Shown piece by piece: positions 36,613 through 47,909 of a stretch of DNA of 47,909 nucleotides. Origin of the DNA: a virus. Under the pieces are notes generated by a model. It did not search any database and was not told where the DNA came from. It saw only the letters and a program-made list of their open reading frames with translations. The position numbers and the translations under genes are program-made. Location of the stretch: positions 1-47,909 of the IMG/VR virus record IMGVR_UViG_3300042197_000276; one strand, given 5' to 3'. The number at the start of each line of letters is the position of its first letter. Within the stretch, counting starts at the first letter, position 1.

Positions 36613-37191
36613 ATGTCTTCTATGAAATTAATTATGGAAAGTTGGAATAGGTATCTTATTAACGAAGATAATTCCGGCTTCACTCCTGAAGAATTGGCAG
36701 AATTAGAAGATGCCCATTCTGCAATGGTTGATGCATACGCCCCTCCAATGGACGAAGGCATCAGTGATTTTGCTAGAGGTGTAGGAAAGAAACTTGGCCG
36801 CGCAGCCATGATAGGCGGACTTGCCCTCGGTGCTCTTGGGGGAACTCCAGCCAAAGCAGCAGGACCAACAGATACCACAACTACAACTCAAGTTGCGAAA
36901 GCGGAAGTCTCTCCAAAGTCTTTATTGGGTGCATTACAACATTACATAAACTCTAAACCAGACTTGAAATCTAAAGTGAATGCCGAAGAAGCTACAATGG
37001 CTTTACAGGTCAAATTAGCAAAAATGAGAGATGGTAAGCCAACTGAAGGTTTTACACAAGCCGAGCAGGGTTTCGTTGATACACTTGCTAAAATAGTTCA
37101 AAGCCACCCAGAAATGGCTGGTCAATTTGCTAGCCTTGGAATGGTGCAAATTGACTATGTTGATGTAAACCCCGTGCGGGGTGGCAACTGA
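36613..37191 (+). CDS. putative internal head protein with capsid-targeting-like N terminus
   Basis: A 192-residue protein. Residues 4-18 read MKLIMESWNRYLINE. This matches position for position the N terminus of the protein at 39533 (MKLILERWDRYRLDE) and ends in an I/L-x-E site of the kind cut by T4 prohead protease gp21. Residues 60-85 (GRAAMIGGLALGALG, then AKAAG) form a hydrophobic, signal-like segment. A Thr-rich linker and a soluble helical C-terminal domain (about 105-180) follow. T4 internal proteins start with similar cleavable peptides (MKTYQEFI.EA). A head-internal or prohead-processed role is therefore inferred. The last codons form a GC-rich hairpin that overlaps the start of the resolvase gene. 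Confidence 0.6.
   Translation: MSSMKLIMESWNRYLINEDNSGFTPEELAELEDAHSAMVDAYAPPMDEGISDFARGVGKKLGRAAMIGGLALGALGGTPAKAAGPTDTTTTTQVAKAEVSPKSLLGALQHYINSKPDLKSKVNAEEATMALQVKLAKMRDGKPTEGFTQAEQGFVDTLAKIVQSHPEMAGQFASLGMVQIDYVDVNPVRGGN
37169..37182 (+). promoter_or_regulatory. stem-loop over the resolvase ribosome-binding region
   Basis: ACCCC (37169-37173) pairs exactly with GGGGT (37178-37182) across a GTGC loop; the GC pair inside the loop can extend the stem to six. The paired GGGG (followed by TGG) is the only Shine-Dalgarno-like run before the resolvase. Ribosomes finishing the upstream gene at 37189-37191 would melt the hairpin, so the two genes may be translationally coupled. A terminator is unlikely because no T run follows. 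Confidence 0.5.
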
Positions 37192-37721
37192 TTCTTGGAT
37201 TAGACATTTCGACAAGTATTACAGGCTTCACGGTTATAGACGACAAAGGCTCCATAATCGTCAATGATGCTTGGGACTTCAGGAATAAGAATAAGTTTGA
37301 CTGTATCTTTGATAAGGCTTCGCATGTAAAAAAGCAGATCATTGAGCTTTCAAAAAAATACAACATCAAAAAGGTCTACATTGAAAAGTCGTTGCAATCA
37401 TTTAGCACAGGCTTTTCATCTGCCAAAACTTTGTCAACGCTATCGTCCTTCAATGGTACGGTAAGCTGGATTTGTTTTGAAGTATTTGGCCATAAACCTG
37501 AATACATCGCTGCTACCTCTGCCCGTAAGATCTGTGGTATAAAGATAGAAAAGGGCGTCAAAGCTAAAGAAGTCGTGCTAAAGCACTTGGTTGACAATGA
37601 ACCTTCGTTCGTGTTATCCTTAACCAGAACGGGTTCCGTCAAGCCTGAATCATACGATAAGGCTGACTCGATCATCATTGCAAAGGCAGGCTTTTTATGC
37701 GAACAAAACAACAAATCCTAA
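37188..37721 (+). CDS. RuvC-like Holliday junction resolvase, non-canonical start
   Basis: An open frame of about 177 residues with the RuvC/RNase H-like signature. ILGLDISTSITGFTVID supplies the first acidic residue, KVYIEKSLQSFSTG the second, AATSARKICGI the helix after strand 4, and SYDKADSIIIAKAG the C-terminal acids. The enzyme cuts branched DNA, a role filled in T4 by unrelated gp49. There is no ATG, GTG or TTG in frame between the stop at 37161-37163 and the LDIS motif. The first usual start is a TTG at 37392, which would remove the catalytic Asp. CTG 37188 or ATT 37191 is therefore the probable start. The gene overlaps the primase by 25 bases. Confidence 0.75.
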   Translation: MILGLDISTSITGFTVIDDKGSIIVNDAWDFRNKNKFDCIFDKASHVKKQIIELSKKYNIKKVYIEKSLQSFSTGFSSAKTLSTLSSFNGTVSWICFEVFGHKPEYIAATSARKICGIKIEKGVKAKEVVLKHLVDNEPSFVLSLTRTGSVKPESYDKADSIIIAKAGFLCEQNNKS

Positions 37722-38623
37722 CAGATGTACTCGGATCTCCTCGCCGGTCAAGCGAAGAGTACCTATACAAGTGTCCATTCTGTGAACACCACAAGCACAA
37801 GCTCAGCGTGAACTTCGATAAGAACGTTTATAAATGCTGGGTTTGTAACGCTACTGGTAAGAGTATCGGTCGGCTGGTCAGACAGTTTGGTTCATTTGAC
37901 GCAAAGCAAGAATGGTCTCTGCACGAAAATGATGTTGATCTGTCCAAGTTCGAAGAGCTATTCGAAACGAAGAAGCCACAACTTGAGACCATTATCAACC
38001 TTCCCGAAGAGTTCGAATCGCTCGCCAACAGAACCCTTATAGACGGCTCTGAAAAGCCTCTCAAATACCTCTACGAGCGCGGCATAACGAGAGAAGACAT
38101 CCTGAAGTGGAAGATAGGCTGGTGCCCTTCTGGACCCTATTATGACCGTATTGTCGTACCTTCGTTCAACAATGATGGATGGGTAAATTACTTTATCTCA
38201 CGTTCGTTCACTGGTGCATTCCCAAAGTATAAGAATCCACAAGCATCAAGGAACATTATCTTCAATGAGCTTTACGTTGATTGGGACAAGCCTATAACGT
38301 TGGTCGAAGGTGTATTCGATGCAATCAAAGCTGATAATGCTGTTCCATTGCTTGGGTCTACACTTACAGAGAACTCAAAACTTTTTCAAGAGATTATCAA
38401 GCGTAATGCTACGGTTTATCTTGCGCTTGATGGAGATGCCAAAAAGAAAGAGATGGACATTCTAGAGATGCTTCTGACATACGGTAACCAAGTATACATG
38501 GTAGATGTTGATGGTTTCAACGATGTTGGTGAAATGACAAAGCAAGAATTCCAACTTCGTAAGAAAGAAGCCTCATTTATCGATCAATCCAACTATTTAC
38601 TTACGAAAATGTTTAGTTTCTAA
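37697..38623 (+). CDS. 61: DNA primase, gp61-like (zinc ribbon plus Toprim)
   Basis: A 308-residue protein (T4 gp61 is 342 aa). Residues 26-50 are a zinc ribbon, CPFC (C26, C29) and YKCWVC (C47, C50). The middle has GITREDILKWKIGWCPSG, typical of the link between zinc ribbon and catalytic core. The Toprim acidic residues are in LVEGVFDAI (E near 203) and ALDGDAKK (D near 244), followed by YMVDVDGFNDVGEM. It would make RNA primers for lagging-strand synthesis together with a gp41-type helicase not seen here. The start at 37697 lies inside the resolvase gene. Recombination genes flank it, consistent with recombination-dependent replication. Confidence 0.9.
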   Translation: MRTKQQILTDVLGSPRRSSEEYLYKCPFCEHHKHKLSVNFDKNVYKCWVCNATGKSIGRLVRQFGSFDAKQEWSLHENDVDLSKFEELFETKKPQLETIINLPEEFESLANRTLIDGSEKPLKYLYERGITREDILKWKIGWCPSGPYYDRIVVPSFNNDGWVNYFISRSFTGAFPKYKNPQASRNIIFNELYVDWDKPITLVEGVFDAIKADNAVPLLGSTLTENSKLFQEIIKRNATVYLALDGDAKKKEMDILEMLLTYGNQVYMVDVDGFNDVGEMTKQEFQLRKKEASFIDQSNYLLTKMFSF

Positions 38624-38637
38624 ACAAAGGAGAATAG

Positions 38638-39516
38638 ATGAAAATCACAAGTAAACGGATCAAAGAGCTTATGTTAGAAGAACTAGGTCCAACCCTCGAT
38701 GAAGTAATGAATGAAATGGGAATGGGACAAGAGCAACCACAAGAGATTGAATTGGTCAATTATCATGGTCAAGAACTTCCACCACCCGACATGCTCGGAG
38801 ATCCAGATTACGAAGGAGAAATGGCTCGTCTACAGTTGCTGAAGGCTTCCCGATACGCTTGTGATTTGACTGACATGCTTAAAGATACTGACCAACTTCC
38901 TGCTTGGATCCAATCAAAGATTACCAAAGCATCGGATTATCTAAGCATAGTAAAACATTACCTATCAGATAGAATTGAGCTTGCACATCGCGATGCTGGT
39001 CATACTGGATCTGCTATCGAGATTGAGTTGGAAGAAATGTTGAAACACGAAGATGATGAATGGAACGTCTACGATTCGAAAGGAAAGAAGAAGCTAGGTT
39101 CTCATCCATCCAAGAAAAAAGCACTAGCTCAAATTGGAGCGATTGAGGCATCCAAGGCTCGTCGCAATGAACAGATAGCTCCTGCCGCTGCTACCGCTCC
39201 TTCTGCACCGGCTGCACCGGCTGCAAAGCCAGCAAATCCAATTAGTTCGAAAATAGGAACCCAAGGTACCTCGGCTTCTACCTTGAAAAAAGCGCAAATT
39301 GTTCAGGCAAAGGGTGCAGGAAATACTGAGTTTAGTCCACAGGAAAGAACAATTATTTTAGACATTAAAACTAAAATAGAACAATTAGCTTCCATGCCAG
39401 ATGTTGATTTGGTAAAGATCCGACCTAAACTTCAACAAGTATTGGCACTTTTATACAAAACTTTTGATAAACAAGTCCAAGCTAGCCAGACACAAATATC
39501 ACAGCAAAAACCATGA
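38638..39516 (+). CDS. putative prohead-internal protein with targeting-like N terminus
   Basis: A 292-residue protein. It begins MKITSKRIKELMLEE, with an L-x-E site at 13-15, the same spacing as in the tagged proteins at 36613 and 39533. Residues about 60-115 contain ARLQLLKASRYACDLTDMLK and ITKASDYLSIVKHYL, a helical domain that I associate with hypothetical proteins of marine T4-like phages. Residues about 138-178 (WNVYDSKGKKKLGSHPSKKK) form a small Lys-rich module. A Pro/Ala linker made of a repeated GCTGCACCG unit follows (about 181-200), then a helical C-terminal bundle. AAGGAG at 38626-38631 is a strong ribosome site. Role inferred: packaged or scaffold-associated head protein. Confidence 0.6.
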   Translation: MKITSKRIKELMLEELGPTLDEVMNEMGMGQEQPQEIELVNYHGQELPPPDMLGDPDYEGEMARLQLLKASRYACDLTDMLKDTDQLPAWIQSKITKASDYLSIVKHYLSDRIELAHRDAGHTGSAIEIELEEMLKHEDDEWNVYDSKGKKKLGSHPSKKKALAQIGAIEASKARRNEQIAPAAATAPSAPAAPAAKPANPISSKIGTQGTSASTLKKAQIVQAKGAGNTEFSPQERTIILDIKTKIEQLASMPDVDLVKIRPKLQQVLALLYKTFDKQVQASQTQISQQKP

Positions 39517-39532
39517 GCTAAGGAGTTTCATT

Positions 39533-40096
39533 ATGAAAAATGATATGAAACTTATTCTTGAAAGATGGGACAGATACAGACTTGATGAAATAGATTCAGT
39601 AGTTCAACAGATAAGACAAGTATTTTCTCAAGGAAAGCAAATCGTCGATCAGGCAAAACAAAAGATTGATGTTGATCTTGGGCCTGCCGAAATCAATACT
39701 TATGGAGATCTTAAGAAAGTTTTACAAGCAATCGAATTGAAAAGAACTGGTAAGTTAGCAGCCGAGAAAGTCACTGAATACCTAAAAGGCTTATTACCTC
39801 CGGGTGCTTCGACTGTTTACAATATGATAAAAGATGCAAAAGATACATTTGATTTCGTAAAAAACATGTACTCAGCAGATGACAGTTTCAAAACACAGTC
39901 AGGCTTAGACAGATTGAATGTTGACGACAATGTTAGTAAAATTGTAGATGATAACGTTGAAGCAGCATTTATGAAACATCTTGTTACTGCACTTGGAAGA
40001 ATGAAAGATGAAACTCCAATTGGCGATTGGAATGCGACACAGGAATTAGAAAGATATCTGGCTCAACAATTCGAAGGACACGCAGTCAAGAAATAA
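39533..40096 (+). CDS. putative internal head protein with capsid-targeting-like N terminus
   Basis: A 187-residue protein. I start at ATG 39533, after AAGGAG at 39521-39526; the frame extends upstream to 39464 but that part overlaps the previous gene. Residues 5-19, MKLILERWDRYRLDE, repeat the tag of the protein at 36613, including a closing L-x-E. The rest is helical and soluble: QIRQVFSQGKQIVDQAKQK, a Gly/Pro turn (LPPGAST) and a C-terminal bundle. No enzyme motif is visible. The parallel with cleaved T4 internal proteins suggests it is packaged in the head, but this is inference. Confidence 0.6.
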   Translation: MKNDMKLILERWDRYRLDEIDSVVQQIRQVFSQGKQIVDQAKQKIDVDLGPAEINTYGDLKKVLQAIELKRTGKLAAEKVTEYLKGLLPPGASTVYNMIKDAKDTFDFVKNMYSADDSFKTQSGLDRLNVDDNVSKIVDDNVEAAFMKHLVTALGRMKDETPIGDWNATQELERYLAQQFEGHAVKK

Positions 40097-40194: not shown

Positions 40195-43100
40195 GTGAGC
40201 ATTCGCATTGCCCACATTTCGGATACTCACATCCGAAATTATAAGTATCACTTTGAGTACAAAGCAGCTTTTCAAGATTTGTATTCAAAGCTGCGTGAAC
40301 AGAAAGTAGATTATATTATACACTGTGGTGACATTGCTCACACAAAGACACAGCTATCTCCTGAGTACTTTGAGTTGGCAAGTGACTTTTTGAGCAATCT
40401 TGCTAACATTGCCCCAACATACGTTATCCTTGGTAACCACGACGGCAATCTAAAGAATTCAAATCGTCAAGATGCGATTACCCCAATCGTGCAAGCCTTG
40501 ATGCATTCCAACTTGCATCTTCTGAAGAACTCTGGCGAAGTAGTGGTGAACGATCTACTTACTCTGAATGTTCTTTCTGTTTTTGACGAAGATAAATGGG
40601 TAAAGCCAAGTGATCAATCAAAGATCAACATTGCGCTTTATCACGGTGCTATTGGAGGGGTCCAGACTGATATAGGCTGGACTATGCAAGGAGGAGACCA
40701 TGATCTCAGCATTTTTTCTGATCACGATTACGCTTTGCTTGGTGACATTCACAAAACCAACCAAGTTCTAGATACAGAAGGTAAAGTTCGTTACCCCGGT
40801 TCTACTATCCAACAGAACTTTGGTGAAACAAATGATAAAGGCTATTTGCTTTGGGATATTCGAAGCAAGGACGACTTTGATTGTACACACATTCAAATCC
40901 ATAATCCAAGGCCATTTGTCACGGTCAATCTTACATCCAAGGGACAACTACCTAAGAATGTCGTAGTTCCTTCGGGTGCAAGAGTTAGGCTAGCTAGCGA
41001 ATTCAATCTTACCGTTCAGCAAATGAACAGGGCAGTAGAACTAGCAAAGCATAAGTTTAGCCCTGAAAGCGTTACCTTCCTTTCGCGTGCTGATAACAAG
41101 CGTGGTCTAGGCTCAAACGCAATCACAAATGTGCCAAAAGAGAACCTACGAGACCCAGCAATTCTAGAGAAGTTCATTCGGGATTATCTGAAAGACTACG
41201 AATGCACCGAAGAAGTAATTCAAAAGGTTCTTGAACTAAACAAGAAATACTCTGCTATCGTAGAGGAAACCGAAGAGGTTGGTCGTAACATCAACTGGCA
41301 AATCAAGTCTTTGGAATGGAGCAATCTTTTCAACTACGGCGAGAATAACAAGATCAATTTCGAAAATTTATCAGGTATTGTCGGTATCTTTGGCAAGAAC
41401 TTCTCCGGTAAGTCTAGCATTGTTGACTCACTATTATTCACTATCTTCAACACAACTTCGAAGAATGAACGTAAGAACTTTAATGTTATCAACCAACAGA
41501 AGAATTTTGCTTCTTGTGTCGCAACAATCGCTATCAACACTGACATTTATACAATCGAACGCTCGCTAACAAAGTACAAGAAGAAAGCAAAGTCTGAAGT
41601 ATTTGATGAAGCCAAGGCAGAGCTTGACTTTGTGAAAGAATGCACAGTCACCAATACTAAAGAATCAATGAATGGTGTTTCCCGAGTTGAAACCGACCAC
41701 AACATTCGTCGTATCTTCGGTACATTCGATGACTTCTTGAATACGTCCATGTCTAGCCAGCTTGATGGTCTTTCGTTTGTACGCGAAGGCAGTACAAAGC
41801 GCAAGGAGATTATTGCTAAGTTCTTAGATTTGGAAATCTTCGAAAAGAAGTTTAGACTAGCCAAAGATGATAGTTCCGATCTAAAAGGTGCGCTCCGTCG
41901 CTTGGAAGGCCGTAATTTTGATGGCGAGATTGATAATGCCCATGTTGAGCTAACAAATAGCGAACAAGAGCTATCGGACTGTCTAGAGAAATGCAAGATA
42001 CTTGAAGCAAGAGTACAAGAATTAGAAAATGAAATCAAAACTCTTGAAGAACAAGTTAATGCTTGCTCAACTGAAGTGATTGATGGAGCAGAACTTCGTA
42101 ATCTTATTTCTAAGACCAACCTCAATGTTTTGACTACCGAAGGTCAAGTGATAGAAAATGAAAAGTCGTTGGCGGAAAAGAAAACACTTCTTGAAAAGAT
42201 CACGGCCTTTATTGCTAACTACGATTATCAATCCTTGGTTGTACGCAAAGAAAACGTTAAGTTACTAAGGGAACAGATGTCCGAAATGGAAAGAGAGGTA
42301 AAGCTAGCTTCAAGCAAAGCAAGTTTACTAGAAGGAATTCCATGCGGTACTCAGTTTCCTAAGTGTAAGTTTATTCGCGATGCTTCTGGTTCCTCAACTA
42401 TTGTTACCGAGACAAAGGATAAGATCCAGCAGTTGACAGATAAACTCTCCGAATACAAGCCAGATAGCATTCAAGCTGATTTGGATAAGTACAACTCAAT
42501 CATTGCCCGTAGGGAAGAACTTGTAAAAGAGATCAAGGATCTAGATTTTTACATCGAACGTGGTAACTTCAATCTAACAAAACTTCAAGATGAGCTAGGT
42601 TCTCTACGGCAAAAGGAAGAAGTATACGAACAGACGAAAGAGCAAATAAAAAATGCCCAATCCCTAATGATAAATCTGAACAAACTAAAAGTATCTTTGA
42701 AAGATGCAAAGCGTTCACATACAGACTGCACAGACAAGCTGGTCCTTATTCATCGCAGAATTGGTTCTGCTGAACAGAAATTAGAAATGCTAACAACTCA
42801 AAAAGATGAGCTAGCAGAACTGCGTACAGAATTCTCAGCATACGAGCTTTTCATGCGCTGTATGCATTCAAATGGTATTGCTTATGACATTATTAAGAAG
42901 CAACTTCCGGTTGTAAATGATGAGATTACCAAGATCCTTTCAAATCTCACAGAGTTCAACGTATTCTTTGAAGAGGAAGGAGATAAACTGGACATCATGA
43001 TCAAACATGTTGACCAAGACCCAAGGCCGCTTTCAATGGCCTCCGGTGCCGAAAAGACTATGGCCGCTATGGCTATTCGTTTGGCTCTACTTCAAGTTTC

Positions 43101-43311
43101 TAATCTTCCAAAGTCAGACATAATGATCTTAGATGAGCCGGGTACTGCACTTGATGAAAATCATCTTCAAACCTTTACTCAACTTCTTGATTTGCTAAAA
43201 ACTCAATTTAGAACAATTTTGGTTATTTCGCACCTTGATAGCTTGAAAGATGTAGTTGATACGACAATTGAAATCGCTAGTAAAGATGGTTTTGCTTTTG
43301 TAAATCAGTGA
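40195..43311 (+). CDS. 47/46: fused Mre11-Rad50 recombination nuclease (gp47-gp46 fusion)
   Basis: A 1038-residue protein from a GTG start. Residues 1-350 are an Mre11/SbcD-type nuclease with all phosphodiesterase motifs: DTH (D10, H12), HCGDIAH (D46), GNHD (80-83), YHGAIGG (H150) and GDIH (183-186). A spacer with a helical stretch follows. Residues about 370-1038 are a Rad50/SbcC-type ATPase: Walker A GKNFSGKSS (about 398-406), coiled coils, a hook with C717 and C724 (CGTQFPKC), the signature ASGAEKTMAA (about 949) and Walker B IMILDEPGTALDE (about 975). T4 has these as separate gp47 and gp46. The complex resects DNA ends for recombination-dependent replication and host DNA breakdown. The join is one continuous frame. 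Its promoter suggests early expression. Confidence 0.93.
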   Translation: MSIRIAHISDTHIRNYKYHFEYKAAFQDLYSKLREQKVDYIIHCGDIAHTKTQLSPEYFELASDFLSNLANIAPTYVILGNHDGNLKNSNRQDAITPIVQALMHSNLHLLKNSGEVVVNDLLTLNVLSVFDEDKWVKPSDQSKINIALYHGAIGGVQTDIGWTMQGGDHDLSIFSDHDYALLGDIHKTNQVLDTEGKVRYPGSTIQQNFGETNDKGYLLWDIRSKDDFDCTHIQIHNPRPFVTVNLTSKGQLPKNVVVPSGARVRLASEFNLTVQQMNRAVELAKHKFSPESVTFLSRADNKRGLGSNAITNVPKENLRDPAILEKFIRDYLKDYECTEEVIQKVLELNKKYSAIVEETEEVGRNINWQIKSLEWSNLFNYGENNKINFENLSGIVGIFGKNFSGKSSIVDSLLFTIFNTTSKNERKNFNVINQQKNFASCVATIAINTDIYTIERSLTKYKKKAKSEVFDEAKAELDFVKECTVTNTKESMNGVSRVETDHNIRRIFGTFDDFLNTSMSSQLDGLSFVREGSTKRKEIIAKFLDLEIFEKKFRLAKDDSSDLKGALRRLEGRNFDGEIDNAHVELTNSEQELSDCLEKCKILEARVQELENEIKTLEEQVNACSTEVIDGAELRNLISKTNLNVLTTEGQVIENEKSLAEKKTLLEKITAFIANYDYQSLVVRKENVKLLREQMSEMEREVKLASSKASLLEGIPCGTQFPKCKFIRDASGSSTIVTETKDKIQQLTDKLSEYKPDSIQADLDKYNSIIARREELVKEIKDLDFYIERGNFNLTKLQDELGSLRQKEEVYEQTKEQIKNAQSLMINLNKLKVSLKDAKRSHTDCTDKLVLIHRRIGSAEQKLEMLTTQKDELAELRTEFSAYELFMRCMHSNGIAYDIIKKQLPVVNDEITKILSNLTEFNVFFEEEGDKLDIMIKHVDQDPRPLSMASGAEKTMAAMAIRLALLQVSNLPKSDIMILDEPGTALDENHLQTFTQLLDLLKTQFRTILVISHLDSLKDVVDTTIEIASKDGFAFVNQ

Positions 43312-43335: not shown

Positions 43336-43545
43336 ATGGTACAAAAAGCACTCGTTGACTGGGGGCTAAACAAACTAGTCTCTAGAAAACTATTAGTATG
43401 GACAACAGCAACTGTTCTAGCCGGTATTGGCTTTCTTTCAAGCTCTGATTGGGTTCTAATCAGCGGCCTTTACATAGGGACACAAAGTGTTATCGATTCT
43501 ATCGTCAAGCTACGCGGCGGTCGTTCAACTTCTGAAGAAGCTTGA
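43336..43545 (+). CDS. holin-like small membrane protein
   Basis: A 69-residue protein with two close hydrophobic helices, about 20-36 (LLVWTTATVLAGIGFLSS) and 38-58 (SDWVLISGLYIGTQSVIDSI), joined by a short turn. A basic and then acidic tail (KLRGGRSTSEEA) follows. Size and topology match class II holins, and the next gene is spanin-like; both points favour a lysis role, but no holin sequence signature exists to prove it. AGAGG lies eight bases before the start. The 3' end overlaps the next gene by 59 bases in another frame, the dense overlap typical of lysis cassettes. Confidence 0.55.
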   Translation: MVQKALVDWGLNKLVSRKLLVWTTATVLAGIGFLSSSDWVLISGLYIGTQSVIDSIVKLRGGRSTSEEA

Positions 43546-43924
43546 TTTCGTCGCTTTCATAAAGCTTATAGGCAAATACTGGCGTGAGATACTAATAATT
43601 GCATTGATTATTGGTTTCTCTATTGCATTGAAAAACCAAAAGAGTTATAATAATGAAATGTATCAAGACTTGATCGAGATACAGAGCGAGGAAATCGATA
43701 AACTGAACGAAGCTCATAAAGAAGAGCTAAAGAAACGTGAAGCTGTTATTGCAAAGTATCAAGCTCAGATCGATAAAATAGAAAAGGATTATCAAAAGAA
43801 ACTCAAAGAACTTTCTACTAAGAAAGATAAGAGAGTAAAAGAGATTGTGAAAAAGAGAACCGATAATCCTAAAGAAGTCGCAAACATTATAACTAATACA
43901 TTTGGATTTGAACATGTGGAATAA
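43487..43924 (+). CDS. inner-membrane coiled-coil protein, i-spanin-like
   Basis: A 145-residue protein. I accept the GTG start at 43487 because AGGGA (43476-43480) lies six bases upstream; no later start is convincing before the membrane helix. Residues 34-49 (EILIIALIIGFSIALK) form one span. Residues about 55-120 are a Lys/Glu-rich coiled coil (EIDKLNEAHKEELKKREAVI), and the tail is short. One N-terminal span and a periplasmic coiled coil is the layout of inner-membrane spanins (Rz-like), which fuse inner and outer membranes in Gram-negative lysis. No matching lipoprotein (o-spanin) is embedded in or next to it, so the call is tentative. Confidence 0.5.
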   Translation: MLSILSSSYAAVVQLLKKLDFVAFIKLIGKYWREILIIALIIGFSIALKNQKSYNNEMYQDLIEIQSEEIDKLNEAHKEELKKREAVIAKYQAQIDKIEKDYQKKLKELSTKKDKRVKEIVKKRTDNPKEVANIITNTFGFEHVE

Positions 43925-44372
43925 AATCATACTGATTATTTGTCTAGCACTATTATCTGCCAACGCTTATGGCGAAGAACAAAAAGGAAAATTCGTACTT
44001 GTTCCTAAAGATGGAAAAGTACCATTTCAAGCAACTTGCTTTGACGACTTGGCAACTGCCGTCTTGATCTCTGACAAAGAGCTTAGAGAAGCACAGTATA
44101 AATTAGAATTAGAAAAGCAAACTTCTATCCTGAAGACTGAATGTGACAAGCGTATAGAACTAGATAAGGTTTCTACTGACGCTGAAAGAGATAGACTATT
44201 GATACAACTTCAATCAAAGCAAGAGCAAATTGATGGTCTAAATAAAAGACTTTCCAAAATAGAACGTACTGACATTCCCGGCATTATTACCGCCAGCCTC
44301 TTAGGTGGTATCATTGTTGGTGGCGGAACAGCCATTGGTATAAACGCAGCAATAAATAAGAAAAATGACTGA
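43914..44372 (+). CDS. exported coiled-coil protein with C-terminal membrane helix (lysis-region)
   Basis: A 152-residue protein. Residues 1-20 (WNKIILIICLALLSANAYG) form a signal peptide with a likely cut near ANA-YG; there is no lipobox. Next come VLVPKDGKVPFQATCFDDLA, then a long coiled coil (about 55-120) with Cys, and a C-terminal Gly-rich hydrophobic helix (GIITASLLGGIIVGGGTAIG) before a basic end. From memory, proteins with a signal peptide, a PKDGKxPF-type segment, a coiled coil and a tail helix occur in lysis regions of other large phages of Gram-negative hosts. The role is unknown; a spanin partner is possible. It overlaps both neighbours by about 10 bases. Confidence 0.55.
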   Translation: MWNKIILIICLALLSANAYGEEQKGKFVLVPKDGKVPFQATCFDDLATAVLISDKELREAQYKLELEKQTSILKTECDKRIELDKVSTDAERDRLLIQLQSKQEQIDGLNKRLSKIERTDIPGIITASLLGGIIVGGGTAIGINAAINKKND

Positions 44373-44772: not shown

Positions 44773-45295
44773 AGTAGTACAAACAATCTCCAGCATCGTT
44801 AGCGAGTTGGGGTATGACGGAGCCAGAAATAAGAAAGGCGAACCCGTCAAGATTGGTCTTAAAAGAGAAGAAGGAAATCCTCTACTCGATAAGCGAGTAA
44901 TGGATGGGTTCGGCGTGCAATTCCACGGCGATCAACTAATCATCAAGTACCATTCAGAGATCATGCTTCAAGAAATCTATAAGGGCAATCTAGAATCCGA
45001 AGTAGAACAAAGAATTCAAGATGTTGCTAACTTCATTAAGAAGGAATACAGTGGATACTCAAAGGCAAAAGGTTCTTTGACACTTACACCACTCGATGAA
45101 GTGAAGGTCCGCGCCGAGAACACTTCCCGTATTCGCTATTGGGTTACAGCCCATAGAGCATACAAGATTGGCAGCGCACAAGGAACCGATCCAGTAAAGG
45201 GCGAGAGCAAAGATTCAGTCGATGCAAAGTTCCGCTCCTTCTTAGAGCAAGGAGGCTTAGGTACTCGTCCGAAGAATGACACAAGACGAGACTGA
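44756..45295 (+). CDS. conserved protein upstream of terminase, unknown function
   Basis: A 179-residue protein. ATG 44756, with GGAGG at 44741-44745, is preferred to a start at 44696 inside the previous gene. Landmarks are a helical start (ATILEVVQTISSIVSEL), GYDGARNKKGEPVKIGLKRE, VMDGFGVQFHGDQLIIKYHS and RIQDVANFIKKEY followed by a LTLTPLDEVKVR strand. These blocks recall a conserved protein encoded directly before terL in many large T4-like marine phages. It might be a head, neck or packaging accessory protein. The stop overlaps the TerL start as TGATG. Confidence 0.6.
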   Translation: MATILEVVQTISSIVSELGYDGARNKKGEPVKIGLKREEGNPLLDKRVMDGFGVQFHGDQLIIKYHSEIMLQEIYKGNLESEVEQRIQDVANFIKKEYSGYSKAKGSLTLTPLDEVKVRAENTSRIRYWVTAHRAYKIGSAQGTDPVKGESKDSVDAKFRSFLEQGGLGTRPKNDTRRD

Positions 45296-46881
45296 TGAGC
45301 CAAGTACTAACAAAACAAGAGACCCTAAAAGAAATAGTCAAATGCGGTAAAGATTCGGTCTATTTCATCAATAACTATTGCAAGATTTCGCATCCCCAAA
45401 AGGGTCTTATTCCGTTTGCCTTGTATGACTTCCAGAAAGAAGCAATCCAAGACTTTACAGATTATCGATTTAACATTGTTCTAAAAGCCAGACAATTAGG
45501 TTTCTCCACTGTAACAGCGGCCTACATTGCTTGGCTTTTGTTATTTCATAGAGACAAAAACGTTCTAGTAGTAGCTACCAAGTTCACGGTTGCAGCTAAC
45601 TTGGTAAAGAAAGTAAAGAACATTATGCAGAACCTTCCCAAGTGGTTGAGGATTTCTGACATCAAAGCTGACAATAGAAGTTCATTCGAACTAACAAATG
45701 GATCTCAAGTAAAAGCTTCTTCGACATCTGGCGATGCTGGTCGTTCAGAAGCCTTGTCTTTGTTGGTTATTGACGAAGCTGCATTCGTTGAAGGACTTGA
45801 CGAGCTATGGACCGGCTTGTATCCCACACTATCAACAGGTGGCCGATGCATCGCCTTATCAAGCCCCAATGGTGTCGGTAACTGGTTCCACAAGACCTAT
45901 TCGGAAGCGGAAACAGGTAAGAACGACTTCCATCCAATTAGTTTGCCTTGGAACGTACATCCTGAGCGTGATCAAGCTTGGTTCGAAAAAGAAACAAGAA
46001 ACATGTCTGCACGCCAGATTGCACAAGAATTAGAGTGCTCTTTTAATTCATCTGGTGATACAGTCATCCCTTCAGAGCAGCTAGCAAGAATTGATTCGGA
46101 GATAAGAGAACCAGCATTTAGAACTGGTTTTGATCGAAACATTTGGATGTGGGAGCAGTACGATCCTACCGCGACTTACCTACTAGTTGCTGACGTTGCA
46201 AGAGGTGACGGCTCAGATTATTCTGTTTTCCATCTCACAAAGTTGGAAACTATGGAAGTCATTGGGGAATACCAAGGCAAACCAACATTAGGAGAGTTTG
46301 CTTATGTCCTTTATAATACGGGTAAAGAGTTTGGAAATTGTTTGCTTGTTGTAGAAAATAACTCTTTAGGTATTTCTGTACTTGAAAAGCTAAAAGAAAT
46401 GGGTTATCCTAATATATACCATTCTACAAAAGGAACACACGATTTTGTTGATTCAACAGAAGCGTTTGATACCGATAGAGTGGTAGCTGGTTTCACAACA
46501 TCATCAAAGACTAGACCTTTGATCGTTGCCAAGCTAGAAGAGTTTATTAGAAACAAATCTATCAAGACTTATTCGGCAAGGTTAGCATCAGAATTTAGAA
46601 CCTTTATTTGGAATGATAATCGCGCACAGGCAATGAGATCGTATCACGACGACCTAGTTATGTCATTGGCGATTACATGCTGGGTCAAAGACACAGCGTT
46701 GACAGTAAACCAAAGAGAAATAGAATACAAGAAAGCAATCGTTGATTCTATGTACTCAGCAAATAGCGTATTTGTTACTTCTATTCCCGGTATGAGAGGC
46801 CATAACATAAACGGTTTCAAACAAAACACTTGGGACAGAGCAATGGAACAAAGAAAATTCAGTTGGTTGCTAAAAGGATAA
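45295..46881 (+). CDS. 17: terminase large subunit, gp17-like (TerL)
   Basis: A 528-residue packaging motor (T4 gp17 is 610 aa). The ATPase domain has the Walker A variant KARQLGFST (64-72), Walker B LLVIDEAAF (D159, E160) and coupling motif LSSPNG (188-192). The RNase H-like nuclease has LLVADVARGDGSDYSVF (D299, D304/D307), VVENNSLG (E353) and the last acid in SYHDDLVMSLAI (about 459-460). It pumps DNA into the prohead through the portal encoded next, and cuts concatemers. The gene overlaps its upstream neighbour by one base and the portal starts four bases after its end, so all three should be co-translated. Confidence 0.95.
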   Translation: MSQVLTKQETLKEIVKCGKDSVYFINNYCKISHPQKGLIPFALYDFQKEAIQDFTDYRFNIVLKARQLGFSTVTAAYIAWLLLFHRDKNVLVVATKFTVAANLVKKVKNIMQNLPKWLRISDIKADNRSSFELTNGSQVKASSTSGDAGRSEALSLLVIDEAAFVEGLDELWTGLYPTLSTGGRCIALSSPNGVGNWFHKTYSEAETGKNDFHPISLPWNVHPERDQAWFEKETRNMSARQIAQELECSFNSSGDTVIPSEQLARIDSEIREPAFRTGFDRNIWMWEQYDPTATYLLVADVARGDGSDYSVFHLTKLETMEVIGEYQGKPTLGEFAYVLYNTGKEFGNCLLVVENNSLGISVLEKLKEMGYPNIYHSTKGTHDFVDSTEAFDTDRVVAGFTTSSKTRPLIVAKLEEFIRNKSIKTYSARLASEFRTFIWNDNRAQAMRSYHDDLVMSLAITCWVKDTALTVNQREIEYKKAIVDSMYSANSVFVTSIPGMRGHNINGFKQNTWDRAMEQRKFSWLLKG

Positions 46882-46885
46882 GTAA

Positions 46886-47909
46886 ATGGCAAAACAAGGT
46901 AAAAACCCAAGAGAACCAAATTCAGAGTTATTCCAGAGGCTTACAAAGCTTTTCTCTGGACCTCTAGTAAACTACAGAACTCAGTCCACTAGACGACTAC
47001 GACGTTCTTTGATGGACAAGTACGCTTCACAATTCCGTTCTGCTTCAGGACAGCAATTCAAGCGTTCACAACTTTATGCATTCTCAAACATGCAGAATGC
47101 TATTATGATCAATCACAATCGCTCTGAGCGTTATGTTGATTTTGATCAAATGGAATATACACCAGAGATTGCTTCTGCGTTGGACATTTATGCAGATGAA
47201 ATGACCACTCACTCAGCACTTCAACCAATGTTGAGCATCAAATGCCGTAATGAAGAAATAAAGGGCGTTCTACAATCGTTATACCATAACGTTCTAAACG
47301 CTAACTTCAACCTTTTTGGTTGGTGTCGTACCATGTGCAAGTATGGAGATTTTTTCCTATACCTTGATATTGACGATAAACAAGGTATTACAAGTGCTAT
47401 TGGTCTTCCTCCACAGGAAGTTGAGCGTTTGGAAGGCGAAGATAAAACAAATCCAAACTATGTTCAATTCCAATGGAACTCTGCTGGTATGACTTTTGAA
47501 AACTGGCAGGTTGCACACTTCCGTATTCTTGGAAACGATAAGTATGCTCCTTATGGTACTTCTGTTCTTGAAGCGGCTCGTCGTATCTGGCGTCAGCTAA
47601 CTCTACTTGAAGACGCAATGATGGCTTACCGTATTGTCCGCGCTCCAGAACGCCGCGTATTCAAGATCGACGTTGGTGGTATTCCTCCCAATGAAGTGGA
47701 GCAATACGTTCAGAAAGTCATTACTTCAATGAAGAGAAACACCATTCTCGATGATACAACTGGTCGCGTTGATCTTCGCTATAACCCATTGTCCGTCGAA
47801 GAAGATTACTACATTCCTGTTCGCGGTGGTTCTGCAACAGAAATCACCTCATTAGCAGGTGGCACATTCACTGGTGACATTGACGACGTAAAGTACCTTC
47901 GTGATAAGC
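46886..47909 (+). CDS. 20: portal protein, gp20-like (3' end outside window)
   Basis: The frame begins at ATG 46886 (AAGGA at 46874-46878) and is open to the last base, giving 341 residues. Landmarks of the T4-type portal are ERYVDFDQMEYTPEIASALD, YADEMTTHS, TMCKYGDFFLYLD, FRILGNDKYAPYGTSVLEAA, RRIWRQLTLLEDAMMAYRIV, RAPERRVFKIDVG and YNPLSVEEDYYIPVRGGSAT. T4 gp20 is 524 aa, so about a third is missing. The portal forms the ring at the capsid vertex through which TerL drives DNA. Arg is mostly CGT/CGC, unlike the AGA-rich tail block. Confidence 0.95.
   Translation, partial: MAKQGKNPREPNSELFQRLTKLFSGPLVNYRTQSTRRLRRSLMDKYASQFRSASGQQFKRSQLYAFSNMQNAIMINHNRSERYVDFDQMEYTPEIASALDIYADEMTTHSALQPMLSIKCRNEEIKGVLQSLYHNVLNANFNLFGWCRTMCKYGDFFLYLDIDDKQGITSAIGLPPQEVERLEGEDKTNPNYVQFQWNSAGMTFENWQVAHFRILGNDKYAPYGTSVLEAARRIWRQLTLLEDAMMAYRIVRAPERRVFKIDVGGIPPNEVEQYVQKVITSMKRNTILDDTTGRVDLRYNPLSVEEDYYIPVRGGSATEITSLAGGTFTGDIDDVKYLRDK

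Follow-up and report, generated by a model that had tools for sequence, protein, structure and literature searches.

Two families of N-terminal tags resembling T4 capsid-targeting sequences on putative head cargo of uncultivated T4-like phages

Three proteins encoded on a linear virus fragment of 47,909 bases (IMGVR_UViG_3300042197_000276; the whole stretch analysed, hereafter called the window) begin with one of two short peptide tags, A and B, which recur at the N-termini of many otherwise unrelated proteins. It is very likely that these tags are cleavable capsid-targeting sequences (CTSs) on cargo that is packaged into the phage head and probably injected. Somewhat less firmly, we consider it likely that a large uncultivated T4-like group uses the two tags interchangeably to load its heads with a changing assortment of unrelated cargo proteins, numbering dozens to hundreds and including many enzymes, which are delivered with the DNA, and that the tag can be used to read this cargo from metagenomes. 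Tags of this kind are already known from T4, but we found no description in the literature searched of either tag family, of how widely the tags occur or of how large the set of cargo is, and all of these appear to be unreported.

The contents of phage heads and the proteins that phages inject have been determined in few isolates. With a sequence signature of head cargo, candidate packaged effectors of uncultivated phages could be listed without proteomics and, because the same two tags are found on scores of unrelated proteins, the tag could serve as an index of the proteins that these phages probably bring into their hosts. A search of 50,697 phage records found neither tag, with the exception of a single weak tag B match in a record of an uncultured phage (the sensitivity of the search was checked); therefore, isolates do not reveal this cargo repertoire. 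Both tags may also be useful in the laboratory as alternatives to the T4 CTS, which is already used to direct proteins into phage heads.

The window and its three tagged proteins

The window is a piece of the genome of a T4-like myovirus. It contains baseplate/tail genes, a primase gene, a gene for a fused SbcCD-like protein, a terminase large subunit (TerL) gene and the 5' part of a gp20-like portal gene. By its TerL (45295..46881, + strand; phrog_2, E=6.6e-50), the fragment is assigned to the T4-like group. This TerL is 93-97% identical to that of uncultured sister contigs; among named phages, it comes closest to that of Flavobacterium phage immuto (43%). The portal gene (46886..47909, + strand), recognised by its sequence and by synteny with the sister phages G021 and G023, is truncated by the record end. 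In both sisters, a gp21-type protease gene is located ~4.5 kb past the portal start, occupying 115403-116011 in G023, and the same site would lie beyond the window end. A single 1038-aa ORF at 40195-43311 fuses SbcD-like and SbcC-like (gp47/gp46-type) parts, as it does in both sisters, and holin-like and Rz-spanin-like ORFs are present at 43336-44372 within the structural gene region.

The three putative cargo proteins are W1 (192 aa; 36613..37191), W2 (292 aa; 38638..39516) and W3 (187 aa; 39533..40096), all on the + strand. A preceding sequence-only reading had proposed that the three share one N terminus. Its coordinates and sequences were confirmed, as was the agreement of MKLIMESWNRYLINE (W1) with MKLILERWDRYRLDE (W3) at 9 of 15 positions, and both of these are copies of tag A. 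The common spacing also held for all three proteins, whereas the sequence of W2, MKITSKRIKELMLEE, turned out to represent a second, equally widespread family, tag B. Similarly, the I/L-x-E that had been assigned to positions 13-15 of each is found there in the tags of W1 and W3, whereas the corresponding glutamate of W2 is E14 or E15. The genome-wide search for further tags that had been proposed was performed as a PWM census of 30 window ORFs and returned exactly these three N-termini, with 0 of 26 among the internal controls of the window.

The W1 ORF is preceded by a ribosome-binding sequence, and its tag A is located at 36622..36666 (+ strand; PWM score 41), with a predicted cut after the E encoded at 36664-36666. 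From the best-supported starts (ATG with a ribosome-binding sequence), the E of the tag is residue 18 in W1 and residue 19 in W3, as had been claimed, because MSS- precedes the tag of W1 and MKND- that of W3. In W1, the tag is followed by an acidic linker, a Gly/Ala-rich hydrophobic segment and then a conserved C-terminal part; the orthologue in G021 is 68% identical and has retained the tag. A RuvC-like resolvase ORF is present at 37188-37721, and its apparent CTG start overlaps the W1 stop codon. The same start position is ATG in G023, which does not have W1.

W2 is a mosaic of modules. Tag B occupies 38638..38682 (+ strand; PWM score 16.8), and the L/I-x-E cut is predicted at E14 or E15. 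The first 179 aa are 83% identical to the orthologues in G021 and G023, and a WNVY module in the protein corresponds to phrog_3684/2859 in the PHROGs search. A cyanophage homologue of the W2 body begins with MKTFKQLREE. The C-terminal 100 residues (39200-39516) are absent from the sister proteins and related to two short, separate tag B proteins (L046 and L215), which suggests that two cargo genes have been fused.

In W3, tag A (39545..39589, + strand; PWM score 29) follows the four-residue MKND leader, and the cut is predicted after the E encoded at 39587-39589. The protein is mostly helical, with a conserved core consisting of TxGDL and LNVDDxVSKIVDD. We identified 78 relatives in viral contigs; the complete ones have kept the tag, and many start with MS[DE]-MKLIMENW, that is, with a short leader before tag A. 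An AlphaFold2 model of W3 built with 42 relatives was helical (mean pLDDT 69), and no PDB fold matched it at E<=0.001. Searches against Pfam and PHROGs yielded neither a functional assignment for W1-W3 nor homology of the mature proteins to the T4 internal proteins IPI-III, and no relatives of W1 and W3 were found among phage isolates.

The W2 locus is occupied in the window, G021 and G023, with conserved primase and SbcCD flanks. W1 is present only in the window and G021 and is absent from the same conserved neighbourhood of G023, and W3 is present in the window but in neither sister. This variable presence of W1 and W3 resembles that of the internal proteins of T-even phages, which are variable (PMC3012670).

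Consensus, spread and putative cargo of tags A and B

The consensus of tag A is MKLIMExWxx[FY]L-x-E and that of tag B is MKITKxxLKxIIxEE. In the common form of tag A, L/I-x-E occupies residues 12-14, one residue earlier than in the window copies (13-15). When viral contigs were scanned with degenerate codons for M-K-L-I-x-E-x-W-x-x-[FY]-L, at least 119 stretches were detected; a control pattern with the codons permuted and the degeneracy unchanged detected none. The tag A pattern matched three times in 257 Gb of bacterial and archaeal genomes, and one of the matches is a clear tagged protein. One tag A protein is located in a candidate division WOR-3 MAG filed as a bacterial chromosome (CP070664.1), a record that probably represents phage DNA within the assembly. 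In 20 whole contigs, tag A occurs one to five times per contig and on one strand within each contig, and the reversed pattern does not occur at all. The tag B scan of viral contigs behaved in the same manner, with no match to the reversed pattern in 19 contigs.

Several tag positions that the scan patterns left free are strongly conserved. Among the matches listed, E14 of tag A is present in 93 of 108; of the 160 for tag B, 151 have E14 and 142 have E15. L8 and I11 of tag B are also conserved, but they were mostly forced by the pattern. Because forced positions provide no evidence, a second scan was performed with only MKLIMEN fixed. In its 102 matches, position 8 is W or F in 98, position 11 is aromatic (F/Y/W/H) in 84, position 12 is L, I, V or M in 80 and position 14 is E in 68. 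[LI]xE was found within residues 10-18 in 58/102 of these, versus 9/102 within the control residues 24-33. Furthermore, third codon positions in the tag vary freely, indicating that selection acts on the peptide. The generic expression Phi-x-x-Phi-[LIVMF]-x-E was enriched at N-termini approximately twofold, and threefold at best; therefore, the weight of evidence rests on the specific tag models. In one contig, G002, two internal controls had PWM scores of >=8, which are probably true tags sampled 3' of a start that had been called too early. A scaffold protein N-terminus with a tag A-like score of 8.1 was rejected, because its real start is MSSLLEQ... and the match arose from an internal start codon.

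As expected of a CTS, both tags are short N-terminal peptides common to otherwise unrelated proteins. By BLASTP, tag A is carried by at least 110 proteins with at least 58 body families, and tag B by at least 148 proteins with at least 116 body families. Recognisable bodies have GNAT acetyltransferase, NT5C/HAD 5'-nucleotidase, cytidylyltransferase, AAA/kinase, 2'-5' ligase and M23 peptidase folds, and the HAD, cytidylyltransferase and AAA domains start immediately after the tag. A kinase-like protein exists in both tagged and untagged versions, and one body is found under both tags (L016 and L202, 53% over 117 aa). An ART-like cargo was suspected from YHxT motifs, and Pfam gave no match.

Tagged genes can be arranged in tandem. 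In G023, five of them, with A and B mixed, are located at 29.7-32.3 kb. Dense islands are also present in G002 (approximately ten tagged ORFs; L485, 9.9-19.5 kb) and G003 (seven tagged ORFs; L478-L479, 78.2-84.4 kb), and recognisable domains are mostly absent from the ORFs of these two islands.

Correspondence to the T4 system and alternative readings

Amber suppression of the CTS of T4 IPIII, MKTYQEFIAE, revealed that residues 4 and 7 function in targeting and residues 8 and 10 in processing, and the prohead protease gp21 cleaves after L/I-x-E (PMC9026906). In the T4 genome, IPII and IPIII begin with MKTYQEFIAE and IPI with MKTFKEF...ITE. The first ITE of IPI is located at residues 17-19, consistent with its 76-residue mature form, so the distance between the targeting and cutting parts is not fixed. 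The spacing of tag A (W8-F/Y11-L12-E14) and tag B (L8-I11-I12-E14) equals that of the T4 CTS: two candidate targeting positions are three residues apart, as are residues 4 and 7 of T4, and the tag ends in an L/I-x-E processing site. Tags A and B share with the CTSs of IPI, IPII, IPIII and Alt a short M-K N-terminal peptide with Phi-x-x-Phi-[LI]-x-E, unrelated and variable bodies and a gp21-type protease. However, they differ from these in sequence (A has W8, and B has no aromatic residue) and in their length of 14-15 residues. Two tag families per genome, far more body families and many enzymes among the bodies also distinguish them from the T4 system.

A gp21-type protease (PF03420, Peptidase_S77) is encoded in all seven TerL relatives tested and in 12 of 20 tagged contigs. 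The other eight contigs also have no major capsid protein gene, indicating that they are fragments missing the head region; every tagged contig that holds the head module thus encodes the protease. In some contigs, tagged genes directly adjoin the protease gene.

We propose that, during head assembly, the amphipathic tag Phi-x-x-Phi-[LI]-x-E would dock a protein to the scaffolding core in the prohead. Subsequent cleavage by the gp21-type protease behind the E of L/I-x-E would release the body, which would remain associated with the packaged DNA and enter the host upon infection. Tags A and B would represent variants of one address, and the genes behind them would be exchangeable accessory cargo, like the T4 internal proteins. 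For W1-W3, packaging, cutting and injection are predicted from sequence comparison. The T4-like, gp21-cut packaging tag suggested by the sequence-only reading agrees with the comparative evidence, namely unrelated bodies, the T4 CTS positions and the protease in relatives, and also with the data on related isolates, in which T4-type versions mark virion-detected enzymes (see below). Two features do not favour a CTS: the cut site of the tag A copies in the window is preceded by one additional residue, and the residue after E is often E, Q or D, versus A after the cuts in T4 IPII/IPIII and IPI.

The tagged proteins may instead be head-assembly factors, such as core or scaffold accessories comparable to T4 gp67 and gp68, which are cleaved to fragments and lost. 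W2 is kept in all three phages, and in several contigs tagged genes, including W3-type and tag B genes, lie between the portal, protease and scaffold genes, as this explanation would predict. However, many bodies are enzymes with no assembly role, and close relatives can dispense with W1 and W3, which makes such a function rather unlikely. It is more doubtful still that the tag stays uncut and directs proteins to, or docks them at, a different phage structure or compartment (the tail, the membrane or the replication site). Tag B could be regarded as a generic amphipathic helix, some tagged proteins look like tape-measure or coiled proteins, and tagged genes are sometimes far from the head module; nevertheless, the conserved L/I-x-E corresponds to the specificity of the T4 prohead protease, the spacing is that of the T4 CTS, and T4-type versions are found on virion-detected enzymes of isolates. 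Finally, although tandem islands make recombination between gene starts easy, it is very improbable that the shared N-terminus is left over, without function in the protein, from the duplication of genes or from their recombination at a common 5' end (promoter, ribosome-binding and start region), because synonymous positions vary while W/F8, the aromatic residue 11 and E14 persist, upstream DNA is not common to tagged genes, the tags of W1 and W2 have retained the motif despite divergence at variable positions, and the same motif positions recur across unrelated lineages.

Related N-termini in characterised phages

The CTS reading gains indirect support from T4-like cyanophages, in which T4-type CTS forms are present. 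The virion proteome of S-CREM2 has been determined by mass spectrometry (PMC10665884). CDSs bearing the motif M..[FYWL]..[FYW][LIVMF].E, in which L at position 4 was admitted after the data had been seen, were detected in virions more frequently than the others (5/6 versus 47/213; Fisher p=0.003), and all four CDSs with the narrower motif lacking this L were detected (p=0.003). The detected proteins gp6, gp13, gp14, gp136 and gp154 begin with M..[FYL]..FΦ.E, while motif-bearing gp175 was not detected. The authors of the proteome state that co-purification of virion-detected proteins is not excluded.

Two further isolates were checked after S-CREM2. The virion-detected NMNAT of S-SCSM1 (PMC9602691) begins with MKSFLQFLKE followed by A, and the virion-detected cytidylyltransferase of S-SZBM1 (PMC9146016) with MRFRQFIIE followed by A, both of the same form. 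S-SZBM1_191/192 and S-SCSM1_30 carry the motif and were not reported as virion-detected. The three phages have in common an F-x-x-F-[LI]-x-E start on virion-detected enzymes, and the enzymes with T4-type tags include three cytidylyltransferase/NMNAT proteins, a family that also provides the body of one tag A protein (L117). The cyanophage enzymes differ from tags A and B in having retained the T4-type MKxF..FLxE. The accessible parts of the three papers do not mention a shared N-terminus of virion enzymes.

In the giant phages phiKZ and SPN3US, ejected head proteins are processed by a prohead protease after x-x-E, and SPN3US has two diverged paralogues with identical first 15 residues (PMC5694885). 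However, these propeptides are mostly >100 residues long, have the motif A-x-E (S-x-E in phiKZ) and belong to another lineage.

Two individual proteins of isolates also have CTS-like sequences. In S-CREM2, the Cas9-like gp12 (OR473000.1, 7704-10313), which is virion-detected, contains F-A-S-F-M-A-E followed by A at residues 19-25. In T4, gp61.1 (NC_000866.4, 18966-19130), a hypothetical protein of 54 aa, begins with MKTFKEFIKE, the CTS form of the internal proteins, and, judging from this N-terminus, may be an overlooked packaged protein.
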